In this document: one piece after another, positions 24,239-56,458 of the stretch | Position numbering within the stretch: position 1 is the first letter of the stretch | Layout of the letters: every line of letters begins with the position of its first letter | Assembly (NCBI GenBank): GCA_020912385.1 | Contig: CP087208.1 | Span: forward strand, 2,666,001 to 2,730,000 | Direction: 5' to 3' | DNA from: Neofusicoccum parvum | Lineage: Eukaryota > Ascomycota > Dothideomycetes > Botryosphaeriales > Botryosphaeriaceae | Length of the DNA stretch: 64,000 nucleotides | The notes under the pieces: generated by a model | What the model was told of the DNA's origin: nothing | What the model saw: the letters and a program-made list of their open reading frames with translations, nothing else | Database searches by the model: none | Translations under genes and position numbers: made by a program

Positions 24239-24428
24239 GGTCGCGTCAGCCAGAGGCAGTGCAATACTGGCGACACCATGAGCCGGAGTGTGAGCGAAGC
24301 TCAGTGACCACCAGCACAGTTTCCAAAAACTGGTTTAACCGCTAGTGCACCCGTAGGCACGTCCTAGAGATTAAACTAAGAAGAACAGATACTTCAACTT
24401 GATCTCAGCCAAATGGCAAGAGAGAGCT
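24239..24428 (-). ncRNA. U2 snRNA-like gene, copy 1 (variant branch-recognition site)
   Basis: This is an RNA of about 190 nt transcribed from 24428 downward. The 5' end AGCUCUCUCUUGCC leads to a small stem (GCC-AUUU-GGC), then GAGAUCAAG as in U2. The branch-recognition site, which is GUAGUA in known U2, reads GAAGUA here (24395-24390), with one extra U before it; AUCUGUUCUU follows as in U2. Then come stem IIa (CUUAG/CUAGG), stem IIb (GUGCC-UACG-GGUGC), the Sm site AGUUUUUGG, the hairpin UGAGC-UUC-GCUCA, and stem-loop IV (GCCAG...CUGGC) with loop UAUUGCACUGCCU, the U2A'/U2B'' site. U2 is the spliceosomal RNA that pairs with the intron branch site. Whether this copy is active cannot be told from sequence. 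Confidence 0.92.
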
Positions 24429-24466
24429 GAAGAAGAAAAGAGGAGCTGGGGTCGAGGGCAAAGAGG

Positions 24467-24474
24467 TTTATATA
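24467..24474 (-). promoter_or_regulatory. TATA box of U2-like copy 1
   Basis: TATATAAA on the minus strand starts 46 bases upstream of the inferred RNA 5' end. The same TATATAAACC stands at about the same distance before the other two U2-like genes. Confidence 0.75.
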
Positions 24475-25202
24475 TGCAAGGCAGTGCACTCGCCTAGGGC
24501 GTCCCCATGACACCCGTGCCCGCGCTATACCAGAAAAGGGGAGGTGTAGCAGAAACTGTCGGAAAGGGTGCAGCCTGTAGCCGCTGTGTCATGTGTCGGC
24601 GGCTGTGGCGCTGTTTTCTGTGTGGACGGGTCACCGAGGTGTTCGATGGAACTCTTGCCGTAGGGACAAGATGCGACGGCCGGGAGATTGGGATGCTGCA
24701 AGGCTGCACTTGCAAGATGTAAGGTATGATGACCGAGCCCATGATCCTTTGCTTCCTTCCGCTGCTGAATGTGTGAAGAAGATCCAAAGGCCAAATATTC
24801 CCAGCGCGGCATCCGCTCACTGCCAGCCACGGAGCAAATAACCACACGGAGCGGTGGTAGAATTCCCGACCGAGTTCCGGCTGCTGCGACGCTGAAAGCT
24901 CTGAAGGCAGCCACGGCAGCACCTGGCGCGAGCAGAACATTGTCGCCCCGACGCAGAACGTCCTCCCTCCACAGCAGTTCTCCGCCACCACTCTGAGAGT
25001 GACTGGTCTCCAAGCCACAACCCTCCAGATCGCACGATCATCGCTACGACCTGTCCTCGCACTGCGGTACCACAAGTCACCAGCCTCTCTGCTCTCCATC
25101 GCTCCACGCTCCGCATCCAGCTCCTCCAGCAGGTACATTACGCTTCCCTCGCGCTAGCAGAGCGGACTGCTCGTCGCTCGAAGCTGCGGCGCTCCGGCTG
25201 GA

Positions 25203-25475
25203 ATGGCGGCTGACCATTTTTCCGCTAGTGCTGCCTCCGAGATGCCTCCCGCGGATCGCTACCTCGCCTACGCGACCAGGCTGCAATGCCTCTGCGTCCG
25301 TCAGCACACCCAGCACCTCTTCCACCAGTGCCCTGCCCCATACTCACGCCTGCGTGAGGTTGGCTGCACCACGCGTACCTGCATCAGACCTGGCGCGTTC
25401 CCACAAGACCCGCCGCGCGATCTCACCGTGACTCGCACTGTCTTCCAGTTCCCGATCCGCAAGAACCAGCCTTGA
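25203..25475 (+). CDS. Possible small hypothetical protein
   Basis: This is a 90-aa open frame from an ATG at 25203 with five Cys (LQCLCVRQHTQHLFHQCPAP, CTTRTC) and no signal peptide. The minus strand is also open here and no family is recognised, so it is a weak call. Confidence 0.2.
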   Translation: MAADHFSASAASEMPPADRYLAYATRLQCLCVRQHTQHLFHQCPAPYSRLREVGCTTRTCIRPGAFPQDPPRDLTVTRTVFQFPIRKNQP

Positions 25476-26023
25476 ACGAGATAGCAGGAATCGACAGCAG
25501 CAGAACAATAGGAGAGGAGAACGAGTCAAGCACCATGCGTGTCATAGGAGTTCAAGCTGTCAAGCATGTGTCCATGGAGACACGAATCATTATCTGCATG
25601 TACACTCTAGAGACCGCTTTCTTGCGCAATCAAGACCCGAACAATCGATCAACTGCTTAGAGCAACTTGCATTTGTCTCACGCCGACGTCTCCTGTGATG
25701 GCACACTGCTATCGGGGCATGCTGCCTGCGTCGCCATTGCTATCGCCAAAAAGGAAGCGAGGCCGTTAGTCAGCCCGCGCCCACAGCTAGCCCATAAATT
25801 CTTCGCGGCTCCCTCTGACTGCGAGCTTCTCTCCAGCACACATCTGGCTGCTGGCCACCTGGCGCCTTGGGTGCTCCCCAACAATGTCTTAATTGTCTTT
25901 GGGCGCATCATTGTGTCCTCTTCGTGAGGCACAAAAGGTACGTGGAAGCCCGGTCAACGTCTCCTTCTATGTCACAGCCTCCACTGACACATTCGCATCC
26001 AGAGGCCTTGTGCCATCTTCGAC

Positions 26024-26345
26024 CATGGCTGCTATAACTGACATCGCGGCTTGCCCGGTCTGGGCAAAGAAGGACGTCCCGGTTGTCGAACAGCTGGAGC
26101 CGACTAAGCTGAAGGTCAGTCATTTCCCATCCTTTGAATCCGCTAGCACTTCGCTCACGTCCATCGCGCAGCAGAATACGGGTTCTCCACCTCACCCAGC
26201 ATCCTCTCGGGAGGGACTATAGCTGAACAGCTACAACACCTGGTACACTGAACAATGTAAGCATCTGCTCGGCCTCCGATACTTACTTCCTGCTTAATCT
26301 TACCGGATGAACAACAGCGAAAAGAATGTTCTCAACCTGGCAATC
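26024..26345 (+). CDS. Possible small spliced gene
   Basis: The ATG at 26024 (context CGACCATGGC) gives MAAITDIAACPVWAKKDVPV and continues to EPTKLK. A GTCAGT donor at about 26114 and a CTATAG acceptor at about 26220 would join it to LNSYNTWYTEQ. A GTAAGC donor with a CAACAG acceptor near 26318 leads to a short third exon. An alternative donor (GTACAC) would join a different frame containing NVLNLAINKSFLMITNTRIW and extend the gene to 26504. A candidate 5' UTR intron (GTACGT ... CACTGAC ... CCAG) precedes the ATG. Which form is real is unclear, and the family is not recognised. Confidence 0.3.
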
Positions 26346-26658
26346 AACAAGTCCTTTCTGATGATCACAAACACGCGAATTTGGAAGGGGTTATCGGTTA
26401 GTGCTGGCATGGCGGATTTGGTGAGGGATTTGGCGAGGGAGGTTAGGGTGAGGGGGGCGAGCAGGAGAGTGGGGATGGATGTTGTGACAGAGAGAGAGGC
26501 ATGAAGCAGTGCGTCAATAGAATAATGTTATGAAAATTTTTTGCTTGCCTCCATGACCAGCAACCCTGATGTTCGGAGACCTCACTATGCGTCATACTCC
26601 CATATTCCTCGCTGACACCTACTCTTCACCTCATCTCACCCTCACGTCAACCACAAAG

Positions 26659-26958
26659 ATGGCAGCCCAATCCAAAGTCGAATGCCCCGCGATCCTACAG
26701 CAGAACTCCTTCAAAGAGATGCTCCAAATCATTTCAGACGAAAAGGAGCGCAAGAGGGGTCGCGCCCCGGAAGGGTGCACTGGCGGGAACAGCAGCGTCG
26801 CGATCGCTGACTGCAAGTTCCGCGCCATGGGCCTGAAACACCTGGCCTCGACCGTCGACCAGGACCTCTGGAAGTGGGGAGCACCATTCCGGTGCTGTGC
26901 TGAGGGCGAGCCTTGCTATGCCCTGCGTGTTCGCGATTTGGCGAGGAGTCTAGCCTGA
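26659..26958 (+). CDS. Small Cys-containing hypothetical protein
   Basis: This is a 99-aa open frame starting at an ATG in good context (AAAGATGGC), chosen over an in-frame ATG at 26569 because codon bias starts there. It has six Cys (VECPAI, PEGCTGG, IADCKF, FRCCAEGEPCYAL), a Lys/Glu/Arg-rich stretch (SDEKERKRGR) and no signal peptide. Third positions favour C/G. The function is unknown. Confidence 0.5.
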   Translation: MAAQSKVECPAILQQNSFKEMLQIISDEKERKRGRAPEGCTGGNSSVAIADCKFRAMGLKHLASTVDQDLWKWGAPFRCCAEGEPCYALRVRDLARSLA

Positions 26959-28069
26959 GGTATGTTCATGCATCACCACATACGGCATTGCCGAAAGAAG
27001 GCAACACGCAGGTAGTTGATGGGCATCTCAGTTTCATTGGGCCGCGCTGATACAGGCACAGGGAGCGGATCTGCCGACGACAATGCTTTCCAGGCTCATA
27101 AAGCCAGACGATGGGCGAGATGACGGGCAGATGGGCACCTCTGCGAAGAACGATAGACGGGAAAGCGGCGTGCAGCTGACCTGTTGCCATATGTGTTCAA
27201 CAAATTGACATCCGCACCTTACTTCACCATGGTTCCCTTTATTGTTTCTGAAGACTCGCCAGATCTCTCAAGCGCTGGGTGAGCTTTGCGCCTGCCGCGC
27301 GTGGGTCGCTTGCGAGCGCCGTTGTCCTTGATCTGTCACCCTCCGCCCTTCTTCCTCCCTCTCCACAACAACCTCCGACCCTCAACCACGTCAGGCTGCC
27401 GCTGAAAGCGGCCCATACACCTGCATTTCCTGCAATTCTTTTTTGCCATCTCTCACCTCCAACGCGTGCTCCGCATCAGGTCTCGTCGCTCCTGATGTCC
27501 GCAGCCTGCCCTCCAACCGAGGCTCACTCACTTCACACTCGCAGCAATATACAAAGAGACCTAATGGGCTCAGAAGGCTCTCTTCCTCCGATTAAGCTCT
27601 CTAAGTCTTAACCTCTTGACCATACTACTGATACTATCACGCAGAGAGAGCCTCCTCCCCATGCCAACGCCGGCTTATCGACTCTCTCCAACGCCTCCAC
27701 CTGGTCTAGGTGGCCAACGGCCACAGATATATCACGACTGCTCCTCCCGAGACACCCTGGCTTCCGGGTGCGATCCATAGCACCCCGAAGTTTGGGCTGC
27801 AGGATCAGGCCACAAGCCCCTGCGAGTGCGTCTCTTTTGTATCCACTCAAGCTGGCTAATTCACGAGCTGACACACCAGGCACAGTGTCACAGATCTCCT
27901 CCCTCTCAATATACCCCAATAGGTCATGTGAGAGAGACTTGGGCGGGAGGCGTACACTCCGCCAGCTCCCGAGATGGGGGTGATACTGACCGCTCATCAG
28001 TAGCAATGACATCATCTATCACCAACATCATCAGGCTATCCATCGGAGTGAGTTACTAAATACTATGCT

Positions 28070-29000
28070 TGTCATACAGATCATCGGCTTCAAGTGCTAA
28101 CAGCTCCTTCGTAGCGATTACCACCGGCATCATTCGTGACAGCATCACTGCCGGTACTATTCCTATCGGTAACATCATTATCATACCCACCACTACCCCG
28201 ACGTCTCTCGCCACCGCCAAGGCAAGAATCAAACTACATACCAGCCCCAGCGGCAGCACCTGCATCCAGCTTCATCGCTCGCCCCGCTCCATGCCCGACG
28301 CCCCGGCCCTGCCCCAACGTGGAGACGTCGGGCTGGGCCGGGTCGCAACCACGCTGTCCTTCCACAGAACAAATGGCCGGCTCCGAATCCCAAATAACAC
28401 ATCTGCCTCTCGCTGGAGCGTTGCTCTAACGAGATTTCGGGACAATGGGGGTCCCAAGCTGGCGACTTGACGGCATGGGGATGGGTTGTCGTCAGCCCCA
28501 GCGCACCTCATGGGCTGCTGCCCCGCCGCCCAAGAAGAAACCAGGAGCGATGGGGTGTTTGGGATACCTCGACATCGGATGGTTGGAGACGCCGGTTCTG
28601 ATAACCCAGAGAGATCGACAACGCTGATGCTCACGCCCAGCAAGACGAGGAGCTCAATCCGTGGATTCACGAAACGTGGGCCAACGGCATGGGGACCCAG
28701 GAAAGGCCAGTCCAGCAACCTCCGCTACCGGAGGGTCTTCTATCCAAGGAGTTCGTTGATACAGAACCATCATACCTCCCCTCCGACATGTCGGGTGCCG
28801 TGTGAGAAGCAGTCACTGGGGGCCGAAAGAAGGTTGGTCAGCCTTCACAGGACGGCCCATATTGTTGGTCTTACATTCTTTACTCAAAGGCCAGCTACCT
28901 GAGTTTGCCTCTTACTCGCCAGGTCAGGAAAGCGGGCTCACTGGGGGAAGTTCAAGTGGTGCGAGAGTTGAGCCGGAGCTCGAATCAACCGAACAGCCAT
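28070..29000 (+). pseudogene. Decayed gene for a probable single-pass membrane protein
   Basis: A plus-strand frame near 28090-28220 gives a hydrophobic segment (SITAGTIPIGNIIIIPTTTP). Past a frame change it reads HAVLPQNKWPAPNP and GDLTAWGWVVVSPSAPHGLL. Past two stops it reads DADAHAQQDEELNPWIHETW and ends LPSDMSGAV. The layout (membrane helix, then a Pro-rich tail) resembles fungal single-pass surface proteins. At least four stops and a frameshift make it non-functional as it stands. Confidence 0.35.
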
Positions 29001-29399
29001 TGTGCTCGAACCACTATTCTTACGCCCATTCATATCTACCCTGTCGCCATCACCACACTACGGCGGATGTCTCCGGTCCGGAAACATCACATCGGGACCG
29101 GTTATATCTGTCGGGTGGTGGGCGCTGCGTTCGGTAGGTTTTATGAGTATCCCGACCTTTCGTTTTACTCTTACATTCAGCTGCTAACATGTCCAATCCC
29201 AGTTACTCCTTGCCACGTCGCCACGCTGCCAATGCCATGCGCCAGTACTGTGGGGGGTTTCTCCTGCCTAGCCAATGTCGAGGCTCGCTTTGTGGCGGAA
29301 TACCGACCTCTCAGTCAACTGCCGATGGTGGAGTGATGGGGATGCGTTGATGGCTCTGGAGAAACCTTGTCTCCCAACGGAGAAACTAGCTCCACTGGA

Positions 29400-32308
29400 G
29401 GAATAGTCTCAATTCCTACGGACTCAGCAGATCAACACTGAGGGTACGAAAGCGGTTGGGGAAGAACAGTGAGTGTCATATTCCCTTCCTTCAATGCTGA
29501 GACATATTCTGATAGAGAATCAGATACGGTATTGGGTCTTTGGCACGCTCAAATCAACGTGCATTTCCGCTTGTTTGAGCATCACTGATGGAGGGAGCGC
29601 AGTCAGGCCAAACACAGGGACTGTTGCCCCAGAGTGACAACTTCCAGACTACTGTGCTGTTGTTTGCTTTTCTTCATCTCCCACTGCTGGTATCATGGTC
29701 TTCCTGGAACTGCGACAACTTCCAGACTACTTGCTCTACTAGCTCTTGGGCCGGGGTCGGATATGCGGAGCATTCCACTCAATATCTTCCTTGAAGGGAT
29801 GAAATATAAGATAGGCATACTACTTGTACCTTCAGAGCTGTCCTGATAAATTCTGTGATATCAGTATCGAGATTATTCGGATGTGAAACTTTCCTCCGTT
29901 CACTTCAATGATACGATGAGCTTGAAGGGGACTTCTATCAGCTTTGCCGGTGTGAGACTTTGTGAATCATTACCTCATGGTGTAGAAATCAAGGCAGTAT
30001 CACCCTAATGCTGTTCAAATTCCCCAAGAAAACCAGGACAAATCTCAAGCATATTCAAACAGCCACCAGCTAAGCCTCAAGTCCTCCGCCTACCCAAATC
30101 AGAAGAATCAGACAGGCCAGCTCAAGGCTCAGTGAACACTCCACAGCACGCGCACCATTTGTAGCTCTACCCGCCGCATGAAACCGAAGGTAAAAACGAA
30201 CAAACCATCTGCACGCCTGCGATGATGGTTGTGCACTTGAGCTGTGTGCGAGGAGCAAAGCCACGATTCCCGATGTGGACTTTCTTACTTCTGATAGTGG
30301 CAGGCCTGTCATACCGAATGACACACTGATGGCACGAGTACGTAGACAGGAAAGCGGGTACTGATAGATGTGCGAGGACTGCGGCACTTGACTTGTTGAG
30401 TTTGTGAAGGGGCTATGAAAGGGATTGGGGAAGGGGAGGTAATCGTAGGTGATCGGCGGGCAACGATTCGGTGGCTGCTCGGGATTTGCTGGCAGAGAGA
30501 CAAAAGTTACGTCACGACCAACCTTGGGAACCCCTTGGATGGGTGGTGATGAAGCTGGATTTACTGACTAAGAATTCATGAAAAATCACACCATCCCTCC
30601 ACCTGGCCTTGCAAACCACAGTCCCGCTCATCATTCCCGAGTGGTGGGAATGGCGGTCAAGTCGTCCAGGCGAAAGAAGAAGGAAGATACTATTTCGTCA
30701 AAAGCCATGTCAGTCACAGCTCCCAGGAATGAAGGGAGAAACGAGGTTCCAGTAACCGTACAAGAGAAAGATAGCAACCAAAACTGTGGCGGATAGCAAT
30801 GAGCGGGCCAACTTCAGTGAGTAGTGGCAATCCGCTGTGTTGGTGTTGGGGGCTGCCAGCGAGAACAGTCAGCTGAGCCTGTAGTAAAATCATCGGCTGA
30901 GAGATATCTGTGAGACTCACGGTCAAGTGGTTGAAATGCAGGAAAAAGGGTTCCGAGGTAAAGATGGCCGTAGCGATGCTCTGTGGCAATGAGACGCGGC
31001 TGGGCGAATGCAAACGACGACCCCCGTCTGGTGGCTGGAAGGACAGAAGTGCAGCAGATAGGGTCAGAAAAGGCTCTCCTACAGAGACGGTGATCGGAAA
31101 AAAGCTGCGCGACTTACGATCTGTATGCCACCAGCGGGGGCCAGTGGCGCGTAGGTGGGCGAGGCCAGCTCTGCCAATTGGCGGGGCTGGGGGAGATAGG
31201 TTTTTGTTGAAGGTCGAGATCAGACAGGTCCCGATGGGAGGAGAGGAAAGGCGTGTTGGGGAGGGGAGGAGAAGCGAGAGGCGACGAGGAATATGACCTA
31301 CCCGCGGCGCTCAGTTGCCGGCGGAAAGTGCGCTGGCCACCGCCGCGCCCGCTGACGGCAAGAACACCCAAACGCCTATCAGCGTGTCGCGCGTCTGATT
31401 GCCGCTTGTGAAGGCATAGCGGGTGATCTCTGCTGTCTCCAGCTTCGCCTAGAAGGAAACGTGAGGGAAAAGCTGGCGATGTCTTCTGTCACTAGTCACT
31501 ACCGGTCCAGATTTGCGCAAGGTCTGTCACCAGTGGGCGCGGATGATGTAAGCGTTCTCAAGGCTCAGCGGCTGTGACTTTTGGACACGTGCGAATTCAC
31601 TTTGCAGATTCCTGGGCCGCGCGGGGTATCACAAGATGGTCAGCTTTCATGCGCACTCGCCGAGGCAGATGCCCGGTATTGCCATCACTCAGTCAAATCC
31701 ACCCCGCAAAATGTTTTTGCGAGCATCGAAATTCAGACACTCGACCGCGGTTTAGTGGCTTCAACCTCTAGTTCGATGGCAGCATATATGCCTAAGACGG
31801 CAGATTGTGTGTTGTGCCAATTCTCAGCGTAACGTCAGAAGGGGAAATGGTTGCTGCGCAACCACTTGACTAGTTTCAGCTCTACCCGAAGCCCGAGAGA
31901 GTGATGTTATGCTCATTGAGAATGCTGTTCAATAGATAGATGTCCAGCCACAGCAGCCCTCCCCCGTGTCCATCTCATCCACTCTCCCACATGAGCTTCC
32001 TCTTCCATCTCCAAGTCCGTCTCCCTATGTGTAGGCAACGGATCTCGTGCACAATTTCCGCACATTGTCAGCCATCTGGACACTATCGTCGTAGCTAGAC
32101 CAGATATTGTAGCGCTGCCTCCAGTATCGGAAACAAAAGCAGAGTTGCGAAGTTGTTTGGTTGAATCCACATGCTCCAAGTGTCCGAGACCTTGTTCCCA
32201 CAAAGCTACATCTTCCCAAAGAAAGAAAGCCCTATGCAATCATCAGCGCTGGCCTCTCCATCGAGCTTCCACCCAAACATACCAGAACAATCACGGGGTA
32301 GCTGTCCG
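29400..32308. other. Gene-poor stretch
   Basis: Apart from the short direct repeat at about 29.6 kb, nothing was recognised. Open frames (for example minus 30070-30387, minus 31913-32239, plus 30910-31296) are short, overlap opposing frames and carry no motif. Confidence 0.35.
29635..29735 (+). repeat. Short direct repeat
   Basis: GACAACTTCCAGACTACT occurs twice, near 29637 and 29715, about 78 bp apart, in sequence without a recognisable gene. Confidence 0.6.
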
Positions 32309-32797
32309 TCACTCGGCGGGGCAGAAGCAGCTCTTCTCGATCCACCGGGCCGCCGCTGCCCCATTGGACGTGAACGATGCCATGGTGGGCAGTGCCGTGT
32401 TCGAAGAAACAGCTGCGACCGCGTCAGTCTTGCCTCCACGAGGGACTCAGTGGGGTGAGGCGGGCTCACCGGGTTGTCCCCTCCACCAGTGCCTTTCGCG
32501 GCACCGGGGAGGGGCAGTGGTGCGAACCAGCGTGATGCTTGTGCCGCCCCTCTGGAGGGCCGGCTGCCGGTCGGGCCAGCAGCGGGAGGTGAGGGCCCCC
32601 CAGAGGACGGTGATGTGGAGGGGAGAGTGCGGCTGGTGCCGCGGTTGCGGCTGGGCCTGTGGAGCGGAGTTCAGCTGCTAGACTTGACGATAATGCCGAG
32701 AGGTGTGGTTGAGGCTGGGAGGCTGAGACACTGGGAAGGGTAGGGCGAGGGGGAGGGCGAGAAGGAGGAGGAGCAGTGACTTTGGCCCGGCTCCCAT
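32309..32797 (-). CDS. Candidate small secreted Cys-containing protein, three exons
   Basis: Proposed exons are 32797-32732, 32677-32470 and 32412-32309, giving 125 aa. Intron 32413-32469 is well formed (GTGAGC, GACTGAC branch, CGCAG). Intron 32678-32731 is weaker (GTGTCT ... TCTAG) but removes the only in-frame stop. Exon 1 is a typical signal peptide (MGAGPKSLLLLLLALPLALP). Exon 2 begins QLNSAPQAQPQP and carries HITVLWGALTSRCWPDRQPA and RCRERHWWRGQP with almost exclusive C/G third positions. Exon 3 ends WIEKSCFCPAE. Four Cys remain in the mature part. No family was recognised; size and secretion fit an effector-like or wall protein. The competing frame on this strand (32466-33017) is low-complexity Pro/Ser/His. 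Confidence 0.45.
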
Positions 32798-33017
32798 CTT
32801 CGGGCACGATCTTGTCGCTGTCGCCCTTGGGCGGATGAGAAGAATGGGTAGAAATGAGGAAGAGAGTGGGAGATGTGAAGGGTGGAATTGGAAGCGGGCG
32901 GGCTGAAATAAGTTGTGGGAGACAGCGGGCAGAAGCGAAGCCGCCGTAATCATGTAACGTGATGGCGGAGGAAGGAGCGCAGCTGCCTAGCCTCAACCCC
33001 AAGCCCAACACGCGCAC

Positions 33018-44357: not shown

Positions 44358-45982
44358 TTATTTAGTGTTGATCCTGACGTTCTGCAGCGCAAGCACTCGT
44401 TTAATACCGAACGGTCCGAACGAAATGCTGTCCTGGCCGGACCAGATGTGCTCCAAGACCTGCATGACCGTCCTGACGAACGACGACTTGAATTCCGAAT
44501 TCAGCAGCGCTGCTTTGAGCGCCTCCTGATGCTCCGGCTTGCGCGTGCAAGATCCAACGAGGATGCATGGCCACATAAGCGAGGCTGCAACGTTGCGGCT
44601 GCGCTGCACCGTCTTCATGTGACGGTAGAACTCATCGACGCAGGGGTCCGTTTTTGCCAGTAGTGCTGCGGTGACTGGATGTGGGCCGTGAGAAGTGGTG
44701 TAGAGGACGAGAAGGGCGGTTTGGGTGAGCATCTGAGTTGCTGTGTCGAGTAGGTGTGATATCCGTTGTTCTGGTGATGGGGAGGATCGAGGTGTGCTGG
44801 CTTTGCTCGCTTCTTCCGCCTTCACTTTCCTGTCGTTGTCATCGTCTTCGTCTTCCTCATCCACGTCCTCCCACTCGTCTTCATCTGCCAGCTCTCCCTC
44901 GTAGATGTCCGTCCCCCTGGTGGCGCTCATCCGCGCAACTTGCGGCAGTTCTGCCCGGACGGGGTAGGACAGACTGGTCTTGAAGCCGAAGCGGTTGCGT
45001 AGTTCCTCAAGAGAGTTCATGGCAGGAACAATCGACTGAGCGTCCGAGCAAATGTAGTGGCGCTGCTTGTTGATGGACACAACGCTCGTCATGATGGACA
45101 GGTACCCGAAGTAATCCAGGATGAATGATAAAAAGGTCCAGTCAGCGCTGCCCACCTTCATGTCCTTCGTACACAGCTGGATCATCTTCCTTGCCGCATC
45201 AAGATGATACCCCGACGCGCCATGCGAGTCGCCGTCATTAACCTGCCACCAATCAGCAGACGCCCATCACTTCTCAACCCTCCCAAACTTACCTCAAAGT
45301 TACACAACAACATCACCGCCAACAACGTCGCCGGCAAATCCACACTCTCCCCGCCCCGCTCCACCAACCTCAGCACCCTCGCCTGCAGCGTCTTGAGCGC
45401 CAACCCATAATGCAACCTCGCCTGCACCTCAGCGCCAGGCCACGCGCCCCTCGCACTCAGCGCCACCAGCGCATGCATCGCGGTATCGTCGCCCAGCACG
45501 AGCGGCGCCACAGCCGCGATGGCGGCGTCGCCCGGCAGCATCTCGAAGCCCTTTGACGCCAGGAAGCGCTCGAACAGCTGCGCGGCGCCGGGCATGCGCA
45601 GCGCCGCGCACGTCGCCAGCTGGCCCGGCGTCGATCGGAGCGGCCCGCCGCAGCGACATGACGCGTGCTGCCGCCGCGCCTTCGCTGATCCCCCGGCCGC
45701 GACGACCGCGACGGCGACGTCCCCCGGCTCCTTCTTGCTGTCCGGGCTGGCGGCTGCGCTGTGCGGACGCGCCAGCTTCCGTGGGCTGGCGCGCTGCGTC
45801 GATGTCGCCGCCGTGGCCGTCGTTGTCGCGTGTGCCCGGGTCGCCGTGGCCGCTTGCCACCCGCACATCGGGCACGGCGGCGGCGACGTCGCCGCGGTCG
45901 CCGCCCTGCCCAGGGCGCGGGCCTGATTGGCGGCCGGGGCCCTGATCGGAGCGGGCGCGTGCTGGGATTGCTGCGCGCCCAT
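44358..45982 (-). CDS. Fungal-specific transcription factor domain protein lacking a visible zinc cluster
   Basis: Exons are 45982-45293 and 45242-44358. The 50-bp intron (GTAAGT, GCTGAT, GGCAG) is phase 0 and the product is 524 aa. Splicing joins LLCNFE to VNDGDSHGASGYHLDAARKM, a diagnostic block of the fungal transcription-factor middle domain (Fungal_trans_2): helical scaffold from LATCAALRMPGAAQLF, through LLAVMLLCNFE, to FLSFILDYFGYLSIMTSVVS. An acidic stretch (DEDEWEDVDEEDEDDD) is typical of the linker. The N-terminal 110 residues are Ala/Pro/Arg-rich with only scattered Cys (PPCPMCGWQ, SCRCGG), not the CX2CX6C spacing of Zn2Cys6. Either the DNA-binding exon is missing or upstream, or this is a regulator without its own DNA-binding domain. 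Presumed nuclear. Confidence 0.85.
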
Positions 45983-47245
45983 TGTTTGATTCGGTGGTGA
46001 GCTTGGCAGAGCGCTATGGATCGTGTTCGGGGGGCGTGTTGAGTAATCGGGGCGGTGCGTGTGGGTTGATTGCGCTTCACGAGGCCGCTCCCGCAGTAAC
46101 CCGCGGGAGCTGCGTTGTTAAGGAGATTTTTCCCGTGCGTGGCCCCGCCGTACTTGAGTCGTGCGCGCGTGGGCTCTGATTGGTGGGTGCGTAGGAGCCT
46201 CGGACATGCAGGGGGGCGGCGGACGCCGAGAGCTTAAATGGACGTGGTGGTGGGCGGTTTGGCGTTGAGAGATTGCGTGGCGGCTGTCGTCTTCCGAGAG
46301 TTTATAAGGTCCCGCGGTCCGTTGTGTGGATGGCGTTTGCAAATTTCCGGGTATCTCCGCCCACGTCCTCTCGAACGACTGCAGAAGCGGTACGAACTGC
46401 TCTGATGATACACGTTGATGGCCAACCCGATAAGACAAAGGCGGACAAGTATCAAAACTTATCCTCTTCTTCTGAACGCCTTTTGAAGTACATCCACCTC
46501 ACACTTTGATGAAACCCACATCTATGACGGCAGCGACATCTGCGTCGGCTCGCAAACAACCTGGAAATGCGCAGGATTATTGAACACTCATGGCCGCCGT
46601 TGTGGTTCAAATGACTGAAGTGTCCTGACAGCTCTTAGAGCGAAGCGCAAGCATATTCTGGAGGTGGACCGGGCGACAGGTATTTTGATTGAACCAGCGC
46701 ATCGTGCCAATGGGCGTGGAAGCTTGCTGTCTAGATCAGTCCATCTCTATGACGTCTAGACATGTTCGATGTCGAGAATGCTGGCCAGTGGAGCGCGGAA
46801 ACGGCGACAAAACTGCTTACTGGGTCAATGATTGTGAAGCATGAGGTCAGACGTATAAACTGGAAGTGTCACTGCGCTCACAGCGGCGCATCATTGTGGA
46901 CGCCCCATTGCGGACGCCTGAGCGTCATCTGATGCTGTGCTGGATGCTACAGCAATGAGGGAATGTGCGGTGGTGGTGACATTGCCATGGAAGTCTTGAA
47001 CGAAGGCTCACGGGTCAAGAACCACAAAGTGTTTGCTTGTGCAGGTGTAGGCGTCAATAATAGATCAGGGCCACCGTGACACAAACTATATTAGAGCCAG
47101 CACCACCAAAACACAACAGAAACGGAACCGGTTGTTAGCATCAAGGTCAACACCGCTACTTCATGCTTATGGTAACTCCTTCCTTTTGTTCCCAGGCATG
47201 CTGGGCGGCAAAACGAAAGAGGAGAGAAGAGACTCCGAAGGAAGA
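45983..47245. other. Intergenic region, no gene seen
   Basis: This lies between the transcription-factor start and the second U2-like gene. Only short unconvincing frames were seen. Confidence 0.4.
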
Positions 47246-47431
47246 ATTTGCGTCAGCCAGAGACAGTGCAATACTGGCGACACCGTGGTCCGAGACATGA
47301 GCGAGCTCAGCGGCCTTGGTCCTGGTTCCAAAAATCAAGTTAATCGAGTAGCCCCCGGAGGGACCTTCTAGCGATTAAACTAAAAAGAACAGTTCACTCT
47401 ACTTGATCTAAGCCAAAAGGCAAAGAGAGCT
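47246..47431 (-). ncRNA. U2 snRNA-like gene, copy 2 (most divergent branch-recognition site)
   Basis: An RNA of about 186 nt from 47431 downward. Its first 30 bases (CUCUUUGCCUUUUGGCUUAG then AUCAAG) match the classic U2 5' end better than the other copies. The region that should read GUAGUA is instead GAGUGA (47399-47394) in UAGAGUGAAC, again one base longer than normal, followed by CUGUUCUU. Stem IIb is paired with different bases from copy 1 (GUCCC-UCCG-GGGGC). The Sm site is GAUUUUUGG, the 3' hairpin UGAGC-UC-GCUCA, and loop IV UAUUGCACUGUCU is closed by GCCAG/CUGGC. Either a variant spliceosomal RNA or a well-preserved pseudogene. Confidence 0.9.
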
Positions 47432-47470
47432 GAAGAAGAAGAAGAGTCCGGAGGGTGTGGTGGAGGGTGG

Positions 47471-48266: not shown

Positions 48267-49233
48267 CTACGCACCAACATCCATCGCCATGCCGATGCCT
48301 CCTCCCAAGCCTCCATCGTCATCATCACCACCGTTCTTCCTACCGCCCATCTTACCATCCACCCTGCCCGGCTCCTCCAAGCTCAGCAGTTCCATCTCGA
48401 TCATCTCATCTCCCTCCCTCTGCACATACAAGCAGAGAATACAGCACACATGGCCGCACTCACACACCTTCTCCGCCTCCCCCACAATCCTCGCCCTGCC
48501 GGCCTTCCTGCACCGACAGCACCTGAACACCACCTCCTCCCCCCTCGCCAACCTCTCCATCTGCCCATCCAAGTGCCCAAACCCCGCCGCCTCATCCCCA
48601 CCAAACGCCTCGCGCATGCCCTCCAGCTCCTCCCTCAACCGCTCCGCCCTCCCCGCAACTCCCCTCCCAGCCGCCACCATCCCATCAAGTCTCTCCACCT
48701 GTACCTTCTTCGCGTAGCACATGGCCATGCACCGCGCACGGATCGCCGCCAGCACGGCGGCCCGGCTGGACTGCGAGCGCCGCAGCCGCTCGACGATCGC
48801 GCCGAACGTGAGCTGGCTCGGCGTGCCGCGGAAGCTGAGGCCCGGTCGCTGGGCATTGCCGTTGCCGCGGCGGTTGCGGCGCTGGGCCGTGAGGCGGCGT
48901 GCGCGCACCTCCCGCGCTGTGGGGGTGGTGGGGTTGCTGCGTGCTGCGTCAGCTGGGGCGTGCTGGGAGGGGAGGACTTCGCGGGGGAGGCGGGGAGTGG
49001 GAACGGGAAGCGCTGGGATGGGTGGTATTGTTTGAGTGGGCGCGACTTGCCTGGGCCTGGACGCGCGTTCGGGATGAGAGGAGGTGACCGCGGGATCGGC
49101 ACGGGGCGGCGGGGGCGGCGGAGGGGGAAACGCGAAGTCGACGACGGTGGTGTTGGACGTACTGTGCACAGTTAGCATGCTAGGCTTGCTCAAGAGAATG
49201 GAAGTCCTACGGCTGGGGTAGAGAGGCGGTCAT
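48267..49233 (-). CDS. Hypothetical protein with Cys-rich putative zinc-binding motif
   Basis: Exons are 49233-49211 (only 23 nt) and 49161-48267. The 49-bp intron has GTAGGA, a GCTAAC branch site and CACAG; the product is 305 aa. The long frame alone has no upstream ATG before 49178; the micro-exon supplies MTASLPQP with a good start context (AAACATGAC). The N-terminal third is disordered (a run of Pro). Residues about 125-205 form an Arg/Glu-rich helical region (LTFGAIVERLRRSQSSRAAV, REELEGMREAF). The C-terminal part has FRCCRCRKAGRA and VCECGHVCCILC, spaced like a two-site treble-clef or zinc-ribbon. A Gly/Asp tail ends the protein. Function unknown. Confidence 0.75.
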
Positions 49234-50509
49234 GTTTGCCAAATTGAAGTTCGGCAAGGGCCTGTTGCCCATGACGGCGTCTTGGGGATCGGGCGGCGCT
49301 CTAGATGTCGTTGGTTAGCCTTAGCACACCAGAACTGTTGCTCGCGAGTAGCATACTCATTCATGTCGCCTGGAATGGTGAGCAGTGTTGCGCGCGAAAA
49401 GCGTCGGTGGTTCTGACGGGTTGCTCAGCGCGAGGATGCAGAGGGTTCGTGCGAAGGTGGCTGGCGCCGCGAAGATTTGTTGTGCCGCCCGCACCAGAAA
49501 ATCAAGAAGCGACCGCTCTGCGAGTGAAGCGGCCATTTTGCTGCCGAAGGTGCGACTTCAGGGTCTCCGGACACCTTACTCGACCAAGCTGCGGCTCAGT
49601 CAAAATCACTATCTCACGCAGCCGCAGCAGAGATGCAAACATCACTTTTTGATTCCTTCAGCAACAGCCACAAGCAGAATACCAAACAAAAAGACCATCT
49701 GCAAACTGTGTGCGAAGTCACCCTTAGGAGCAAAGTTGCGGAATCAGAATGAACTCGATATTGAGCCCAGCGAGCAATGCGTATATATGTACCCATGAAC
49801 GGTAAACCCCATGCGACATCGTTACTTCCCATTAACAGTCCTTTTCTTGCACCCAGCTCCTTGAATCCGTCTGTAGAGTCCTACAGTACGGATTGGATAT
49901 CTTCGTCATGTGTTGAAGAATACTGGCATTGTGTTTCGCCTTTGTCTCTCATTGGAGCGACAAATCCCGTTCAGTGACGGCCCTCTCTTGGAAGGCCTTT
50001 GTCCCAAACTCCATGGTGGCATCCTGTATACCGGCCTGTGGTTATACATTTAGTTTTAGAACCCGCTTCAAGTTTCCAGAGGAGCAAGGGATTGCCCGGA
50101 TTGCATCTATATAAGTGCAAATTCTGACCCGCTAATCCAGCGCTGATGGCTGGCCTTGGCCGCCGGCGCATGTCCAAGAGCACCACAGAGGTATGAGAAC
50201 ATTCCAGATTGGGAGAATCTAATTGAACTCTGAGATCGTATAGGAATGATAGACCATTTCATGGTGTGGAGTCTCTGAGACTTGCGACTTGAGAGATCGT
50301 ACAGCTCCATACGCATACGCAGCAGTGAATGTGAACACTTTCACGTGATCCGTACCTGACAGGAGCGCGGACTTCATCTTCGACTTCCCTCACTTTTTCT
50401 CCTCTCTACAACATCATCGCCTTTCTTCCCGCGCGCCTCCCGCAAAACCAGATCTTCTTCAAAACTCCAACACCACCAACAACACTACCACCACCACCAC
50501 ACCACCACC
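49234..50509. other. Intergenic region upstream of small coiled-coil gene
   Basis: No gene was recognised; the open frame at plus 49385-49798 lacks motifs and a convincing start. The last 50 bases are a CCA/CAC-rich leader before the ATG at 50510. Confidence 0.4.
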
Positions 50510-50845
50510 ATGTCTCCCAACACCCCCACCCGCACCATCACTCAGGAGGAGGAGCTCGAGCTCCTGTACGCCGAGCTGGAGGCGCTCCGCGCCCGCAACG
50601 ACGCCCTGCTCGCCCGTGCCAACGCCGCCGAGGCTGAGACGGCGCGCCTGCGCCGCTTCGTGGAGAGGACGATCCGGTCGTTCCTCACCCACACCTTCTA
50701 CGCGCAGGGCATCGCGCGCGAGGCGGGTGACGGTCTCGGCCCCGGCGGGCGACAGCTGAAGTTCCGCATCAGGAGTTGGGGTGAGCAGAAGCAGAGGTGG
50801 ACGGAGAGGAGGATGGAGGCGTTCCTGGCGGGTGACTGGGAATAG
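50510..50845 (+). CDS. Small coiled-coil hypothetical protein
   Basis: A 111-aa single-exon frame from an ATG in strong context (CCACCATGTC). Residues about 10-55 are a heptad-like Leu/Ala/Glu coiled coil (EEELELLYAELEALRARNDA, ANAAEAETARLRRFVERTI). A conserved-looking aromatic segment follows (RSFLTHTFYAQGIA) with a basic C-terminus (SWGEQKQRWTERRMEAFL). Codon bias is strong. No family or localisation signal was recognised. Confidence 0.7.
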   Translation: MSPNTPTRTITQEEELELLYAELEALRARNDALLARANAAEAETARLRRFVERTIRSFLTHTFYAQGIAREAGDGLGPGGRQLKFRIRSWGEQKQRWTERRMEAFLAGDWE

Positions 50846-51417
50846 GTGTAAGTCTTTTCCTTCTTTGGTGTTGGGAAGATCTGGTGGGGGGTTGAAGGAT
50901 TCGTCCGGATGGGAAAGGTCTTTGCATTTTCCTCAAGGTGGATGATTCAATCGCCTATGGGGCATGGACATACCACTTGGATACTACGACAGTAAGCTTA
51001 CTGATGATGTACATATAGCACCAACACCAGCGACAGCTTCAACAACAACACGGCGTCACGTATAGTCTGGTCGATCATAGCATCAAAATCGCATACGACC
51101 TCGTATCAGTTTCGGCAACATCCAAATCGATCATTACGACTCCAAATACAGCATTTCCGAATCCGGTCTTCCGGCTCTGAAACCAGCATTTATCCATGAA
51201 GAACAATCCAGCATCAAGAATTGTTAATGGGAGAGAGGGGCTTCAGAGGGAACAAAATTCACATCACAGATTAGCACGTCAATGAACACAAAGACCTGTC
51301 CCTTGGACTTGTCTTTTTGCCGGTCAAATCCTTTGAGCCATTGCGCGTTATTGTTCAACAAGTCCAGATATCACATTGTTTTCCTACTATTCAGCACTTC
51401 CAGGTCCTCCCACTTCA
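50846..51417. other. Intergenic region, convergent
   Basis: Between the 3' ends of the coiled-coil gene and the NmrA-like gene. Lower in GC; nothing was recognised. Confidence 0.4.
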
Positions 51418-52564
51418 TCACATCTCGTAATGCGGTTTCTCAATCTTGCCGTCTAGTAGATCCCTGAGAAAGTCCCTGAACTTGATTGGCTGGAAGTCTG
51501 GGAAAAGTCCCTGGGCGTCAAGGTAACCAAGATACTTTGCGTACTCGATCTGATTATCCCCTCGAACATACTTGCTGTACTGATAGTCAGTGAACTGCCT
51601 CATCCCAAAGTTCGCATTTGTCGGATCCCGCTCATAGTTTGCTCTGGCCTCGCTTCGTTGAGTTTCCAGCTCGCCGTAGGACACCTGCCGCAACAGCATT
51701 AGCCAGAAGTCTTGATTGCACTATGCTATTCAGTACCGTTTGCTTTTCGAGTTTCTCCCCAGTCACATCTTCCACAAGGGAGAATATCTCATTTTCGCTG
51801 AGACTGTCACTCCAAGCCACCACGTATCTATTCATGGTGCGCTCATCATCCAGAATGCGCGCAGTCCAACGCCCGATATCACGCCAGTCTCCGAGAACAG
51901 TCTTCCGTTCTCCATCTCCATGGAAGATATTCACCGGCAGCATTGCCGCGTAGTCGAACCTACCCGAGGGCAGTACCGGTGGGAAAGAGACTTGGTGCCA
52001 GAAGCCAACATCGATCACCGTGAAGGGAAGATGCAGCTTCTTGATGTGATTGTAGACGTCCTCCTTCTGATTCAACTGTCAGCCAGGATTGCCTCGAATG
52101 CTACTGCCATCCACTTACATGATCTCGTGTCACCATGACACCTCCCGCTGGCGCCACCGTGATCCAGGCGCATGGCACGAATCGCTTCACACCTGCTTCC
52201 TTCGCAGCCGTGGCGAGATTCTTCTGTGCATGAATCGAGCCGGCGTCAATTGCGCTGATGGTCACATCAATGCCCCTTTGGATCTCGACGAGGTCCTCGG
52301 TCGGACCGTTGATGTCGGCGATGACAATACTGACTCCCCGCTCGACGAGCTTCTTCACCTCTGGCTTTTCGGCTGAAGATGGCCGAACTAGCGCTTGGAC
52401 TTCCTGATGCCCGCCGCGTTATTACCTCGCTTGAACAGCAGTCGTGTTCGAGAGTTGAGTGGCCAACTTACGTATTTTCCATATTCGAGCAATCCGTCAA
52501 GGATAGATCTGCCAGTGTGGCCAGTAGCTCCGAGAAGGAGAACTCTCTGCTTGTGGCTTGCCAT
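51418..52564 (-). CDS. NmrA-like / isoflavone reductase-type NAD(P)-binding oxidoreductase
   Basis: Four exons are 52564-52472, 52403-52119, 52066-51737 and 51684-51418, with introns of 68, 52 and 52 bp, all phase 0; the product is 324 aa. The start MASHKQRVLLLGATGHTGRS carries the Rossmann nucleotide-binding motif GATGHTGR (12-19). Then come the second strand VSIVIADINGP, the conserved VTISAIDAGSIHAQ, FVPCAWITVAPAGG, HLPFTVIDVGFWHQ, an extended domain with DIGRWTARILDDERTMNRY, and a C-terminal substrate lobe. In this atypical short-chain family, members are either reductases of phenylpropanoid-like compounds or redox-sensing regulators like NmrA. The usual catalytic Lys/Tyr cannot be assigned with certainty. 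Presumed cytosolic. Confidence 0.9.
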
Positions 52565-53266
52565 TGATCGGTTTCTGAAGCTCGGGATGACTGGCTCAGA
52601 AATCAGTGAAAGAATGCATAGAAGAGTCTCTACATTCTTAATTATAATCAGTTCTAGGTTGTACTCAACCCCTTGTGGTATGGCGATTGTTAAGCAAGGA
52701 ACGGGCTCGGGGAAGTCGGCTTTCCGAGGAGACCAATCAGGCAGCGAAGGATCAATAAGGATCTTACGGGAAGACGCAATCGGTGGCGACAATCATGCGA
52801 CGGCCTTGCGGTTTTGTTCCGATGCTTAACAATCAACCAATAGAAGTTGGGTATACTTTCCGCGTTGATGTAAGCAGGTCCCCGGCTGGTGTGAGAGATA
52901 AGCAGATCCGTCTTGACTTCACAATTCCCACAGGCTGGCTCACGCAACATGGCTGATACATCTACCATCACGCAGTCTGAAGACTCGCCTTTTATTGTTT
53001 ACTTCCAGCGGAGCCAACGGCAATCTGTGAGTGGTGCTACACATGCGATGTTCTCCTTAGTTTGATCCTCGGCAGCCCAGGTCTTGCCTGGCTTTCTTTC
53101 TGTCCAAGGTGAATCATGAATCCCTCGAGACCGTTTACCATGATCGTAGAAGCACATAATCTCGCCAAAAGTACCATTTGCCCAACCCATCCAAAAGCAG
53201 ACTTTTATCCCCCATCCGGATTCCAAAGCACCGCGCAGCCGCGCGGTTGCGCTCCGCCTCTCCTCC
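52565..53266. other. Intergenic region upstream of NmrA-like gene
   Basis: Contains the NmrA-like promoter; TTTTATT near 52990 is the only TATA-like sequence noticed. No gene was recognised. Confidence 0.4.
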
Positions 53267-53722
53267 CTACCCCGACCGATAGTCCTTAAACTTCTTCAAA
53301 ACCTCCCTCCCCTTCTCCGCCTGCTGGCTCCCCATCCCGACCAGCTCGGCCAGCCACTTGGTCTGCGCCTCGAGCTCTCTGTACATCTGACGCACCGCGA
53401 TCGCGTTGTTGGCGTTCTCTTCGCCCTGCTTCTCGCAGCGGTCACTGAGTGCCTGGATCGTCTTCTTCTGCGTCGCGGCTGTCGCTTCGAGCTCTTTGAT
53501 GCGGGTCCGCGCGGCCTTGAGCTCGAGGTTGTTGGTCTGGCGCGACGGGTCGCTGCCCGAGATGCGGGGTGAGGCGCGGTAGGACTGGCTGGTGCTGGGC
53601 GTGCTGTTGCTACTGGGCGTGGTGGCGGTCGTGTTGGACGAGGTGATGCGCGAGGAGGGGTGGATGGTCTTGTCGTCCGGGCCGCCGGTGAGCTTGTCGA
53701 GGACGCCTTGGAAGCCGGGCAT
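53267..53722 (-). CDS. Small coiled-coil hypothetical protein
   Basis: A 151-aa single-exon frame starting at an ATG (GGCATGCCCGG on its strand gives MPGFQGVLDKLTGGPDDKT). A Ser/Thr-rich disordered segment (residues about 25-60) precedes a coiled coil of about 80 residues (LELKAARTRIKELEATAATQ, LSDRCEKQGEENANNAIAVR, MYRELEAQTKWLAELVGMGS). The N-terminal 20 residues and the coiled coil suggest a structural or adaptor protein. No membrane or targeting signal. Confidence 0.72.
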   Translation of the reverse strand: MPGFQGVLDKLTGGPDDKTIHPSSRITSSNTTATTPSSNSTPSTSQSYRASPRISGSDPSRQTNNLELKAARTRIKELEATAATQKKTIQALSDRCEKQGEENANNAIAVRQMYRELEAQTKWLAELVGMGSQQAEKGREVLKKFKDYRSG

Positions 53723-54096
53723 GGTGAGAGTAGTGGAAGTGGATTTGTGTTGGTGTGGTTTAGTGCTTTTCGTGATGCTTGTGTTGCGAGATTGTGACGT
53801 CGCTGTCGATGTGCGGCGGCGTTGCCGATGATGTTGTGTTGGGTGTTGTAGTGAGATGAAGAACGGCGGAGAAAGATGACGGAGGATGCCTTTTTATGCT
53901 ACGCCCGGGCGCGAGACTGCGCACACCATCCTGCTGCTACCAATACGCAGGCTCTCCGTAACCGCATGCCATGCAGATGTGTTTGTACAGGAAGAGAGGA
54001 TGCCAAAGTCAAGAAAAACTCCAAACGCACTTGCTAAAGAGGAACCCAAAACCAACATTCCCAACATGAAATTCAAAGCAGAGCAAGCCCACCACC

Positions 54097-54960
54097 CTAC
54101 TCATCCACCGGCAACGGCGGTAACGGCTTCTCCAACCGCGCCGCCTTGTCCACCAGCGGCCACGCCGCAAAACCCCAACCGCGTCCCGTATCGAGCATTC
54201 CCCGCTCATCCTCAAACGCAACCAACACCTCCGCCTCCACCTGTTCCCACGGGCCAGACACCGCAACCCCGACAGGTCCCGCCGGCCCCACCGGCAACGA
54301 CGAGCTGCGCCGCGGCCACGGCACGCCGCGCCCGCGCCTGGGCAGCGGACGCGAGAAGTTAACGACATCGGCGCCGCCGCCGCGCCGAACCGGAGCAGAC
54401 GAGACGCGCAGAGCGCCGGCAGGGAGGTAGGCGGCCGCGGGCGGCGCGGGCGCGGCGCGCTTCGGCGGCGACGGGAAGGCGGAGATGAGCTCGGGCGTGG
54501 AGAGGTCGCGCTCGCGGCCGACGGCGGGCTTCTTGACGGGGCTGCCGGTCGGGAGGACGGACGTGCGGCGCGCCGGCGACAGCGCCAGGGCGCGCAGCGG
54601 CAGGCGCGGCAGCGGGCGCGTGGACGTGGGCGACGGCGACGGCGCGAGGAGGTTGGCGGATGAGGTGTTGAGGAGGCGGAGCTTGCGGAGGCCGGACGCG
54701 GCGGCGAGGGTGAGCGGCGCGGCGGTGACGGAGATCTTCGGTGGACTGGGCATCTTGATGGGCGTGTTGTGGTGCGGTCCGGCTTGGGCGAGGCTGGCGG
54801 GTAGGTGGGCGCCCGGCGCGGTGGTGCGCTGGGGGATGAATTTGAGGCGTGTGAGGGGCGCTGGGAAGGACTTGCGCGGTAGCGAGATCTTTGGTTTCTT
54901 GGAGGGAGACGAGGAGCGGGAGCTGTTGGAAGCAGTGTTGTTGGAGGAGAGGAACACCAT
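54097..54960 (-). CDS. Disordered basic Pro/Ser-rich hypothetical protein
   Basis: 287 aa from an ATG at 54960 (context CACCATGGTG on its strand would be NCACCATCATGG; the codon gives MVFLSSNNTASNSSRSSSP). An in-frame start at 55119 is rejected because the added residues look like 5' UTR translation. The protein is rich in Pro, Ser, Arg and Ala with short SP/TP motifs (SPSKKPKISLPRKSF, LSPARRTSVLPTGSPVKKPA) and ends with an acidic-aromatic segment (GPWEQVEAEVLVAFEDERGM) and PLPPLPVDE. Probably a phosphorylated, disordered fungal protein. No domain was recognised. Confidence 0.6.
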   Translation of the reverse strand: MVFLSSNNTASNSSRSSSPSKKPKISLPRKSFPAPLTRLKFIPQRTTAPGAHLPASLAQAGPHHNTPIKMPSPPKISVTAAPLTLAAASGLRKLRLLNTSSANLLAPSPSPTSTRPLPRLPLRALALSPARRTSVLPTGSPVKKPAVGRERDLSTPELISAFPSPPKRAAPAPPAAAYLPAGALRVSSAPVRRGGGADVVNFSRPLPRRGRGVPWPRRSSSLPVGPAGPVGVAVSGPWEQVEAEVLVAFEDERGMLDTGRGWGFAAWPLVDKAARLEKPLPPLPVDE

Positions 54961-56225
54961 GATGGAGAGGCGTTGGAGGGCGAGATGGAGAAGTCTGGCT
55001 GATGTTTGTAGAGAAGATCTGGATAGAGTGCGGCCGAGAAGAGAAAAAGGTAGTGGTGTTGAAGAGAAAGGGAGAAGTGGGAACGGGTAGTAGCAGAAAT
55101 GCTGGCAGCGCACTTTCACAGCACTGCCTCACTGACCATCACAAAGTACAATAGCTGGTTGCAGTCACTTGGGACCGCAGCGAGCAGGGAATTTCGATCT
55201 ACATGGGAATGATATGGTCACCTTTCAGCAGCACTGATGACAGGCTGAAGAGTCCCTGCTCGACATGAAAGTCTTCCCCACGTATAGAAGCTCAGATAAC
55301 TCTCGGATGATTGAGCTACCAGCTATTGCAACACCGCATGGCTTCGTGAATGAATCATCTGGAAACAAACAAAAGTTTGTAATCGGGCAAAAGCCAAGTT
55401 GGAATCTTTGCTGAATGTCAAATAGGGCCACTGGAAACCGCCACCTGAGGAGAAAAACGAAAGCCCCATATTTCCGACGACGGTGACATTTGATATATTA
55501 AGACACGCTCTGTGCATTTTGACTCCAAGCCGTTGACCCAAAGCGACGTCACTGTGTAAGATAATTCGAATAATCGTAATCTCAAACAGTGTCCTTACAT
55601 GGGGAGCTGAAGCAACCGCGTGGGCGGTAGGATTGCTGCAGATATGTAACATAGCTGTCCCGACGAGCACATCAACTCTTCATCGACAGAATATGCACAC
55701 CGCCAATGGCAAGTATTGACCCGTGATGGGCCATACTCCTTCTGCATGCTGGATCCTTTCTGGTAACCCATATATTGCATGGCAGACTTTCTTGGCCAAG
55801 TAGCCTAACTTCTCAATGCATCTTATCTGCCCCTGCGGTGGTCGAAAAGTATGAAATCATTGTTCACGAGATTCGTTCTCACCAGGTCAATATGAACGCC
55901 CGGTAGACGGCGAGCAGAGAGCACTGCTGCGGAGCTTCACCCCATGATCTCTTGCTCGTGAAATATGGGCCAGCCGTGTCCGCCATATCAGCGAAAAAGG
56001 CTGCCCAGAGCCGACAGCAGGTCACAGCAGTGCTAGAAGCAGCTATGCAACGATTGACGCTTACCTCATTCACTTCTGCCAGGCCCCATTCCGAAAACGT
56101 CTTTCCATCACCCCGTTCCAACTTCGCTTGTTTGTGTCAGCAAGCGAGTGTCCATCGCCCAGGGCAATTCCCTGAACAGTCAGCAGCCGCTGCAAGCGAG
56201 ACGCCGGCGCGCCACCTCCTCCACA
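54961..56225. other. Intergenic region before U2-like copy 3
   Basis: No gene was recognised. The sequence becomes AT-richer between 55.2 and 55.8 kb. Confidence 0.4.
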
Positions 56226-56234
56226 CATATAAAC
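56226..56234 (+). promoter_or_regulatory. TATA box of U2-like copy 3
   Basis: CATATAAAC lies 44 bases before the inferred RNA start, followed by the same pyrimidine-rich tract ending CTTCTTCAGCTCTC that precedes copies 1 and 2. Confidence 0.72.
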
Positions 56235-56269
56235 CCCTCTACCCCTCTGCACTCCGTCTTTTCTTCTTC

Positions 56270-56458
56270 AGCTCTCATTGCCTTTTGGCTTTGATCAAGA
56301 TGCAGTAACTGTTCTTCTTAGTTTGATCGCTAGGACGTGCCTACGGGTACACTACTGATTAACCCCATTTTTGGAGACCGGGCTCTGGGCGCTGGGCTTG
56401 CTCATCTCAGAGTCCACAGTGTCGTTCCTATTGCACTACCTGGTCCTGACGCGAAAAC
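56270..56458 (+). ncRNA. U2 snRNA-like gene, copy 3 (branch-recognition GCAGUA)
   Basis: An RNA of about 189 nt. The 5' stem is GCC-UUUU-GGC, then UUUGAUCAAG (U replaces the usual A of UAGAUC). The branch-recognition element is GCAGUA (56302-56307) instead of GUAGUA, with one extra base before it, followed by ACUGUUCUU. Stem IIa is CUUAG/CUAGG; stem IIb GUGCC-UACG-GGUAC shows a U-A pair where copy 1 has U-G. The Sm site is AUUUUUGG, the 3' hairpin UGGGC-UU-GCUCA, and loop IV UAUUGCACUACCU. The stem IV base (GUUCC/GGUCC) has two mismatches, so this copy may be the least stable. GCAGUA would pair perfectly with a CUGAC branch site. Confidence 0.88.

Follow-up and report, generated by a model that had tools for sequence, protein, structure and literature searches.

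Diversified branch-recognition bases in a family of U2 small nuclear RNA genes of the fungus Neofusicoccum parvum

To our knowledge, the branch-recognition sequence of U2 small nuclear RNA (snRNA) is generally treated as fixed. In yeast, an engineered second copy of U2 with a substituted branch-recognition sequence has been paired with altered branch sites. Going by titles, Bombyx reportedly has a family of snRNA isoforms, and Dictyostelium is said to have developmentally regulated U2 variants (a 2006 report by Hinas). Drosophila has six U2 paralogues, with differences between them at four positions, and concerted evolution is described for multi-copy snRNA genes (PMC4291461). In humans, the loss of variant U1 snRNAs alters splice-site use (PMC13172311). 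Among the titles and abstract openings listed in our literature search, none describes naturally occurring U2 genes whose branch-recognition bases are changed, which does not prove absence. Here we describe three such genes in a 64,000-nucleotide stretch of Neofusicoccum parvum contig CP087208.1 (C3:2666001-2730000, hereafter the window; genome of 44.0 Mb, 18 contigs) and place them in a family of at least 37 U2 genes, 20 of which lack the standard sequence GUAGUA. The single match to the STE3 pheromone receptor in this genome is 97% identical, along its entire length, to the receptor of N. parvum, as expected for that species or a near relative in the family Botryosphaeriaceae.

A cmscan of the window against Rfam returned exactly three RF00004 matches above the gathering score of 46 bits, each spanning model positions 1-192, and besides U2 no RNA family scored above its cut-off there. 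The first-pass annotation had placed three U2 genes in this stretch, with recognition bases GAAGUA, GAGUGA and GCAGUA and one extra base in the loop region; its coordinates held to within a few bases, and direct reading confirmed both the altered bases and the extra base in all three copies, none of which contains GUAGUA. The genes were located by Rfam, and their parts, given below in window positions, were read directly from the sequence, the 3' box of L013 also by pattern search.

24235..24428, minus strand: U2 snRNA paralogue L020 of A34 type; an additional U precedes the recognition loop (RF00004, 108.7 bits)
24390..24395, minus strand: branch-recognition sequence GAAGUA of L020
24322..24331, minus strand: Sm site AGUUUUUGGA of L020
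24467..24474, minus strand: TATATAAA box of L020
24168..24209, minus strand: snRNA 3' box of L020 (TTCTTCGTCG...GAGGAAG), an element common to U1, U2 and U4 genes
47242..47433, minus strand: U2 snRNA paralogue L012, recognition loop AGAGUGA plus one extra base (RF00004, 118.2 bits)
47394..47399, minus strand: branch-recognition sequence GAGUGA of L012, AGU core retained
47328..47335, minus strand: Sm site AUUUUUGG of L012
47471..47478, minus strand: TATATAAA box of L012
47179..47218, minus strand: 3' box of L012, with variant end AAAGGAAG
56268..56460, plus strand: U2 snRNA paralogue L013 of C34 type; an additional A precedes the recognition loop (RF00004, 116.8 bits)
56302..56307, plus strand: branch-recognition sequence GCAGUA of L013
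56367..56374, plus strand: Sm site AUUUUUGG of L013
56228..56233, plus strand: TATAAA box of L013
56470..56509 (C3:2722470-2722509), plus strand: 3' box of L013, TTTCGTTG...GAGGAAG

The GCU and AUC segments, which we take to be the partners of U6 in helix I, can be read in each of the three copies; in the 37-copy alignment, AUC is intact in 34 rows and shows a C-to-U change in three. The counted stem pairs are formed to 91% in L020, 97% in L012 and 94% in L013. The window copies are U2 in build, and their reading of ordinary branch sites is putative.

The expectation that many copies would be found was borne out by a covariance search of the whole genome, which gave at least 37 U2 matches above the gathering score (58 to 155 bits) on ten contigs, with one more found by pattern. 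This count is a lower bound because 46 of 464 first-look candidates were scored, and the counts from our genome searches are lower bounds in general. A pattern for the Sm site with stems III/IV hit 39 places (control, 0), 36 of them within the 37 and three new: L118, a 38th copy whose U2 score exceeds the cut-off (56.2 bits); L116, whose score lies under it (36.5 bits); and L117, without an Rfam match at E values up to 0.1. The copies are widely divergent, with a mean column identity of 69% in the alignment of 37. GUAGUA is kept by 17 copies, hereafter canonical, a list set by hand and then confirmed by string search; the labels for base 34 were also set by hand. The earlier statement that all copies are noncanonical therefore holds for the window and fails for the genome, and the word "unlinked" proved misleading: the three genes lie within one island of 0.31 Mb (C3:2.63-2.94 Mb) in which 14 of 14 copies are noncanonical versus 6 of 23 elsewhere (Fisher p 6.5e-6), its borders having been drawn once the copies had been seen. 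An extra base in the loop region occurs in 11 of the 20 noncanonical copies versus none of the 17 canonical ones (p 0.0002). Both p-values overstate independence, since the copies share ancestry.

These are genuine genes under constraint, and they are built as U2. We derived a structure with RNAalifold from the same automatic 37-copy alignment, edited it by hand and counted 34 pairs, stem I excluded; having this origin, the structure is somewhat favoured in the pairing counts. Standard pairs fill 94.3% of the 1255 pair cells, and slid control structures reach 30-47%. Cells in which both sides have changed in compensation number 127 versus 35.2 in shuffles, 0 of 500 of which attain 127, and double changes affect 18 of the 34 pairs. 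Mean pairing is 94.3% in noncanonical copies (n = 20) and 94.4% in canonical ones (n = 17), with lower values in more divergent copies (71% of cells in L036 and 76% in L037). The Sm core TTTTTGG is present in 37 of 37 copies; among eleven regions, the Sm region varies least (mean entropy 0.11 bits) and the linker preceding it varies most (1.26). Neutral change across stems and Sm site, which the first-pass annotation had named as counting against its interpretation, is contradicted by this constraint.

The signals around the genes are retained as well. A TATA box lies at -30 to -58 in 33 of the 35 contiguous copies, including all 20 noncanonical ones; in the canonical copies L002 and L003, a weaker stretch rich in T and A takes its place, and in two intron-bearing copies, L031 and L035, TATA stands ahead of the first exon. 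The 3' box (TTTCGT, a hairpin, then GAGGAAG) follows the genes at varying distance, with TTYGTY in 36 of the 37 U2 copies, and the same element is found downstream of U1 and U4 genes. Its exact pattern occurs at 34 places (control, 2), assigned by coordinates to 18 U2, 5 U1 and 1 U4 genes and 10 sites elsewhere, and a looser pattern at 62 places versus 16 in the control. Similarity between copies mostly stops close to the promoter and the 3' box (median left end -42), which leaves transposition of a larger unit unsupported, although a few pairs extend further: L005/L007 and L008/L028 have more than 500 bases in common.

Within this conserved frame, change in the recognition loop is concentrated at particular positions. 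In published modelling, A35-G36-U37 of U2 acts as a toehold and U34 pairs with intron position -1; the same source, from which we take the numbering, names position 34 as Psi34 (PMC13167188). All 37 copies retain the AGU toehold. The alignment rows give U 17, C 9, A 9 and G 2 at position 34, both G rows (L012 and L034) being misaligned in the loop by the automatic alignment; with hand-set labels, G34 appears in L012 only, whose loop register is uncertain. When alignment columns 46-55 are kept out of tree building, position 34 needs 13 changes, or 12 after hand correction of the two misaligned rows, and positions 33, 35, 36 and 37 need 2, 1, 1 and 0. Positions 38 and 39 need 5 and 11, and the two columns immediately upstream of GAUCAAG need 11 and 6. 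With the five most diverged copies left out, there are 9 changes at 34, 0 at 33 and at 35-37, 2 at 38 and 7 at 39. Across the 191 columns, 13 is among the highest values; the five final columns of the 3' tail span 10 to 18, a range that includes it. The suggestion of a release from selection only at this site thus came fairly close to a pattern that is in fact sharper: U34 and position 39 vary around a toehold kept in every copy.

We then asked what branch sites the genome supplies. Since an ab initio motif search in the window was uninformative (23 candidate introns versus 19 in a reversed control), introns were taken at breaks in protein matches, namely 59 short stretches where kinase and P450 matches are interrupted or end. 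Our own uncalibrated scoring, which ignored base -1, placed 36 introns above threshold and dropped 23 stretches. The base preceding the branch A is G in 20 introns, A in 14, U in 2 and C in 0, the sites being CUGAY, CUAAY and, seldom, CUUAC. Such a spectrum suits a pool of U2 RNAs in which position 34 is U, C or A. In duplex energies calculated with the branch A not forced to bulge, C34 prefers CUGAC over CUAAC.

Several genes of related kind were encountered in these searches. L031 (C4:297415) and L035 (C1:2977548), two of the 37 copies, carry an intron-like insert at the identical site, between GGCUUAG and AUCAAG: the first 26 U2 bases are followed by GTACGT or GTACGC, a branch-like CUAAC or CUGAC and then CAG, after which U2 resumes at AUCAAG. 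These inserts are probably spliced. A U6 copy, L040 (C2:2956570), is apparently interrupted after CACUAAG by an insert that starts with GTTCGT. In the U2-derived L117 (C2:1741008), the 5' domain is gone and a short leader, the Sm site and stems III/IV are left, a layout that we take to resemble U7. The 5' pairing parts are replaced in the U2-derived L116 (C2:1736300) and L135 (C8:1457430), the latter located via its 3' box and having a subthreshold U2 match of 35.5 bits. They are also replaced in L133 (C3:2619390), which by BLAST is 74.5% identical over 102 bases to the U1 copy L044 and has no Rfam match. Nine genes (L119-L121, L123-L126, L134 and L137) have an snRNA-type 3' box without an Rfam match, six of them with a TATA box; Sm-like sites were read in L120, L121, L126, L134 and L137. 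Several of the genes that have a 3' box but lack an Rfam match look like further Sm-type RNAs.

Among the other spliceosomal RNAs, the genome searches gave one match each for U4 and U5 and three for U6. U1 may have been multiplied as well, given eight matches at E values up to 0.001, none of them above the U1 cut-off. A divergent U6 gene, L039 (C5:766338), lies less than 50 kb from the U2 genes L018 and L024, and a U1-like gene, L042 (C3:2631462), lies about 0.7 kb from the U2 gene L014 on the opposite strand.

Our leading hypothesis is that the variants are transcribed U2 small nuclear ribonucleoproteins (snRNPs) with a shifted branch-site preference, a proposal in which expression and changed branch choice are both extrapolated from sequence and to which, taken whole, we give slightly less than an even chance. 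Each window gene, with its TATA box, constrained stems, Sm site, AGU core and recognizable 3' box, would be transcribed; the RNAs would be assembled into Sm/U2 snRNPs that keep probing branch sites through the A35-G36-U37 toehold; and the identity of base 34 would shift preference among CUNAY sites, U34 toward CUAAY (with a G-U wobble on CUGAY), C34 toward CUGAY and A34 toward CUUAY. The cell would then hold a mixed pool of U2 particles, an idea akin to isoacceptor tRNAs, with most noncanonical particles encoded in gene islands, and splicing machines of differing branch-site preference may coexist in it. The altered branch-site specificity offered by the first-pass annotation is, in this respect, plausible and well placed: the survey of introns backs it for C34, as CUGAC is common, and weakly for A34. 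A more ambitious version, a natural "decoder" family in which selection has diversified base 34, set between a toehold that never varies and a conserved particle-building scaffold, housed mostly in islands and feeding new Sm RNAs, is possible, and we regard it with considerable doubt.

Several observations weigh against tuned branch-site reading. Variant supply does not match demand, since A34, present in 9 of 37 copies, matches only the rare CUUAC; of the 36 introns, two have this site, and one of the two (L066) also contains competing branch motifs. CUGAC branch sites function with ordinary U2 in other fungi, so that C34 is not needed, and in other organisms position 34 is a conserved pseudouridine, which C34 and A34 copies cannot have. 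The duplex energies also score CUCAC high with U34, C34 and A34, and CUCAC is absent from the introns. Support for the tree is weak: of its 34 inner branches, 16 are open, and the bootstrap is not settled. Gene conversion, too, could give the appearance of repeated change. Some members of the family have abandoned branch-site reading, since the recognition hairpin is rebuilt in L036, L037 and L118 and the loop is lost in L116, L117 and L135; the rebuilt hairpin of L037 is at -8.1 kcal/mol, versus group means of -1.3 for canonical and -2.1 for noncanonical copies, L037 included. Finally, the variation at position 39 (11 changes) and position 38 (five) could reflect tolerance instead of tuning. 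In that case, working U2 genes would have escaped homogenization, and U34 and position 39, mattering little, would drift while the toehold stays. The two most variable positions of the loop do flank the toehold and position 38, A34 mismatches the common branch sites, and canonical and noncanonical copies are otherwise under equal constraint. Free drift, however, predicts G34 about as often as A34 or C34, and G34 is seen once, in L012 with its uncertain register; if each change had a one-third chance of giving G, all 12 would miss it with a probability of 0.008, an approximate value given that the changes are themselves reconstructed. Noncanonical loops are, moreover, clustered in the island, which relatedness may explain in part. 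Because the share of A34 copies is far above that of CUUAC sites, we put the chance of tuning at roughly one half and regard tolerance, although unlikely, as its main rival.

It is distinctly less probable that the window copies are early steps by which U1 and U2 duplicates feed nonsplicing Sm RNAs, such as regulators or competitors, keeping the biogenesis module while the pairing part changes. The reduced L117, the replaced 5' domains of L116 and L135, the altered 5' end of the U1-like L133 and the short units L121, L134 and L137, with their Sm-like sites and 3' boxes, all suit such a route, but the window copies retain the AGU core, GCU and AUC, which a nonsplicing RNA would not need. Recent, dead duplicates in decay, as the lower pairing of L036 and L037 might suggest, are very hard to reconcile with compensatory change far above shuffles, with loop change restricted to particular positions and with TATA, Sm site and 3' box retained amid mostly unrelated flanks; for the family as a whole, pseudogene identity was rejected, as promoter, Sm site and stem pairing have not been lost. 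An artefact of assembly or contamination we consider scarcely credible: the genome can be checked only from its own sequence, but the copies lie on ten contigs in mostly unrelated flanks and differ too much from each other for duplicated reads. Shifted branch-site preference is the hypothesis that we retain.

Around the window genes, Pfam matches were obtained for 3 of 20 scanned open reading frames (ORFs), and no functional neighbourhood can be named from them. Two adjoining ORFs at 44358-45982 (minus strand) match Fungal_trans_2 and are possibly pieces of one transcription factor gene.

With 20 of 37 U2 genes lacking the standard sequence and the remainder of each RNA visibly selected, this genome offers a natural experiment on the share of U2 in branch-site choice. 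Should the variants be expressed, every one of them is a ready test of how bases pair at position -1; should they play no part in splicing, the family shows U1 and U2 genes turning into new Sm RNAs.

A fungal U2 gene with an mRNA-type intron has reportedly been described before, in Rhodotorula hasegawae (a 1993 report by Takahashi, known by title), and on that title alone the intron-like inserts in 2 of the 37 copies are comparable. Like canonical U2 (RF00004), the genes described here match the model over its full length and have the Sm site, stems IIa, IIb, III and IV and the AGU toehold; unlike it, 20 of 37 lack GUAGUA and 11 of 37, all noncanonical, have a loop region longer by one base. 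Several variant U2 genes per genome are also a feature of the animal snRNA isoform families of Drosophila and mouse, and, as far as a paper title tells, Dictyostelium provides U2 variants in another microbial eukaryote. The human variant U1 snRNAs are likewise snRNA paralogues, of U1 there and of U2 here. In contrast to the Drosophila U2 paralogues, the copies of N. parvum have diverged greatly and variation extends to the recognition loop itself, and whereas the second-copy U2 genes of yeast are laboratory constructs, the altered U2 loops of this fungus are natural.

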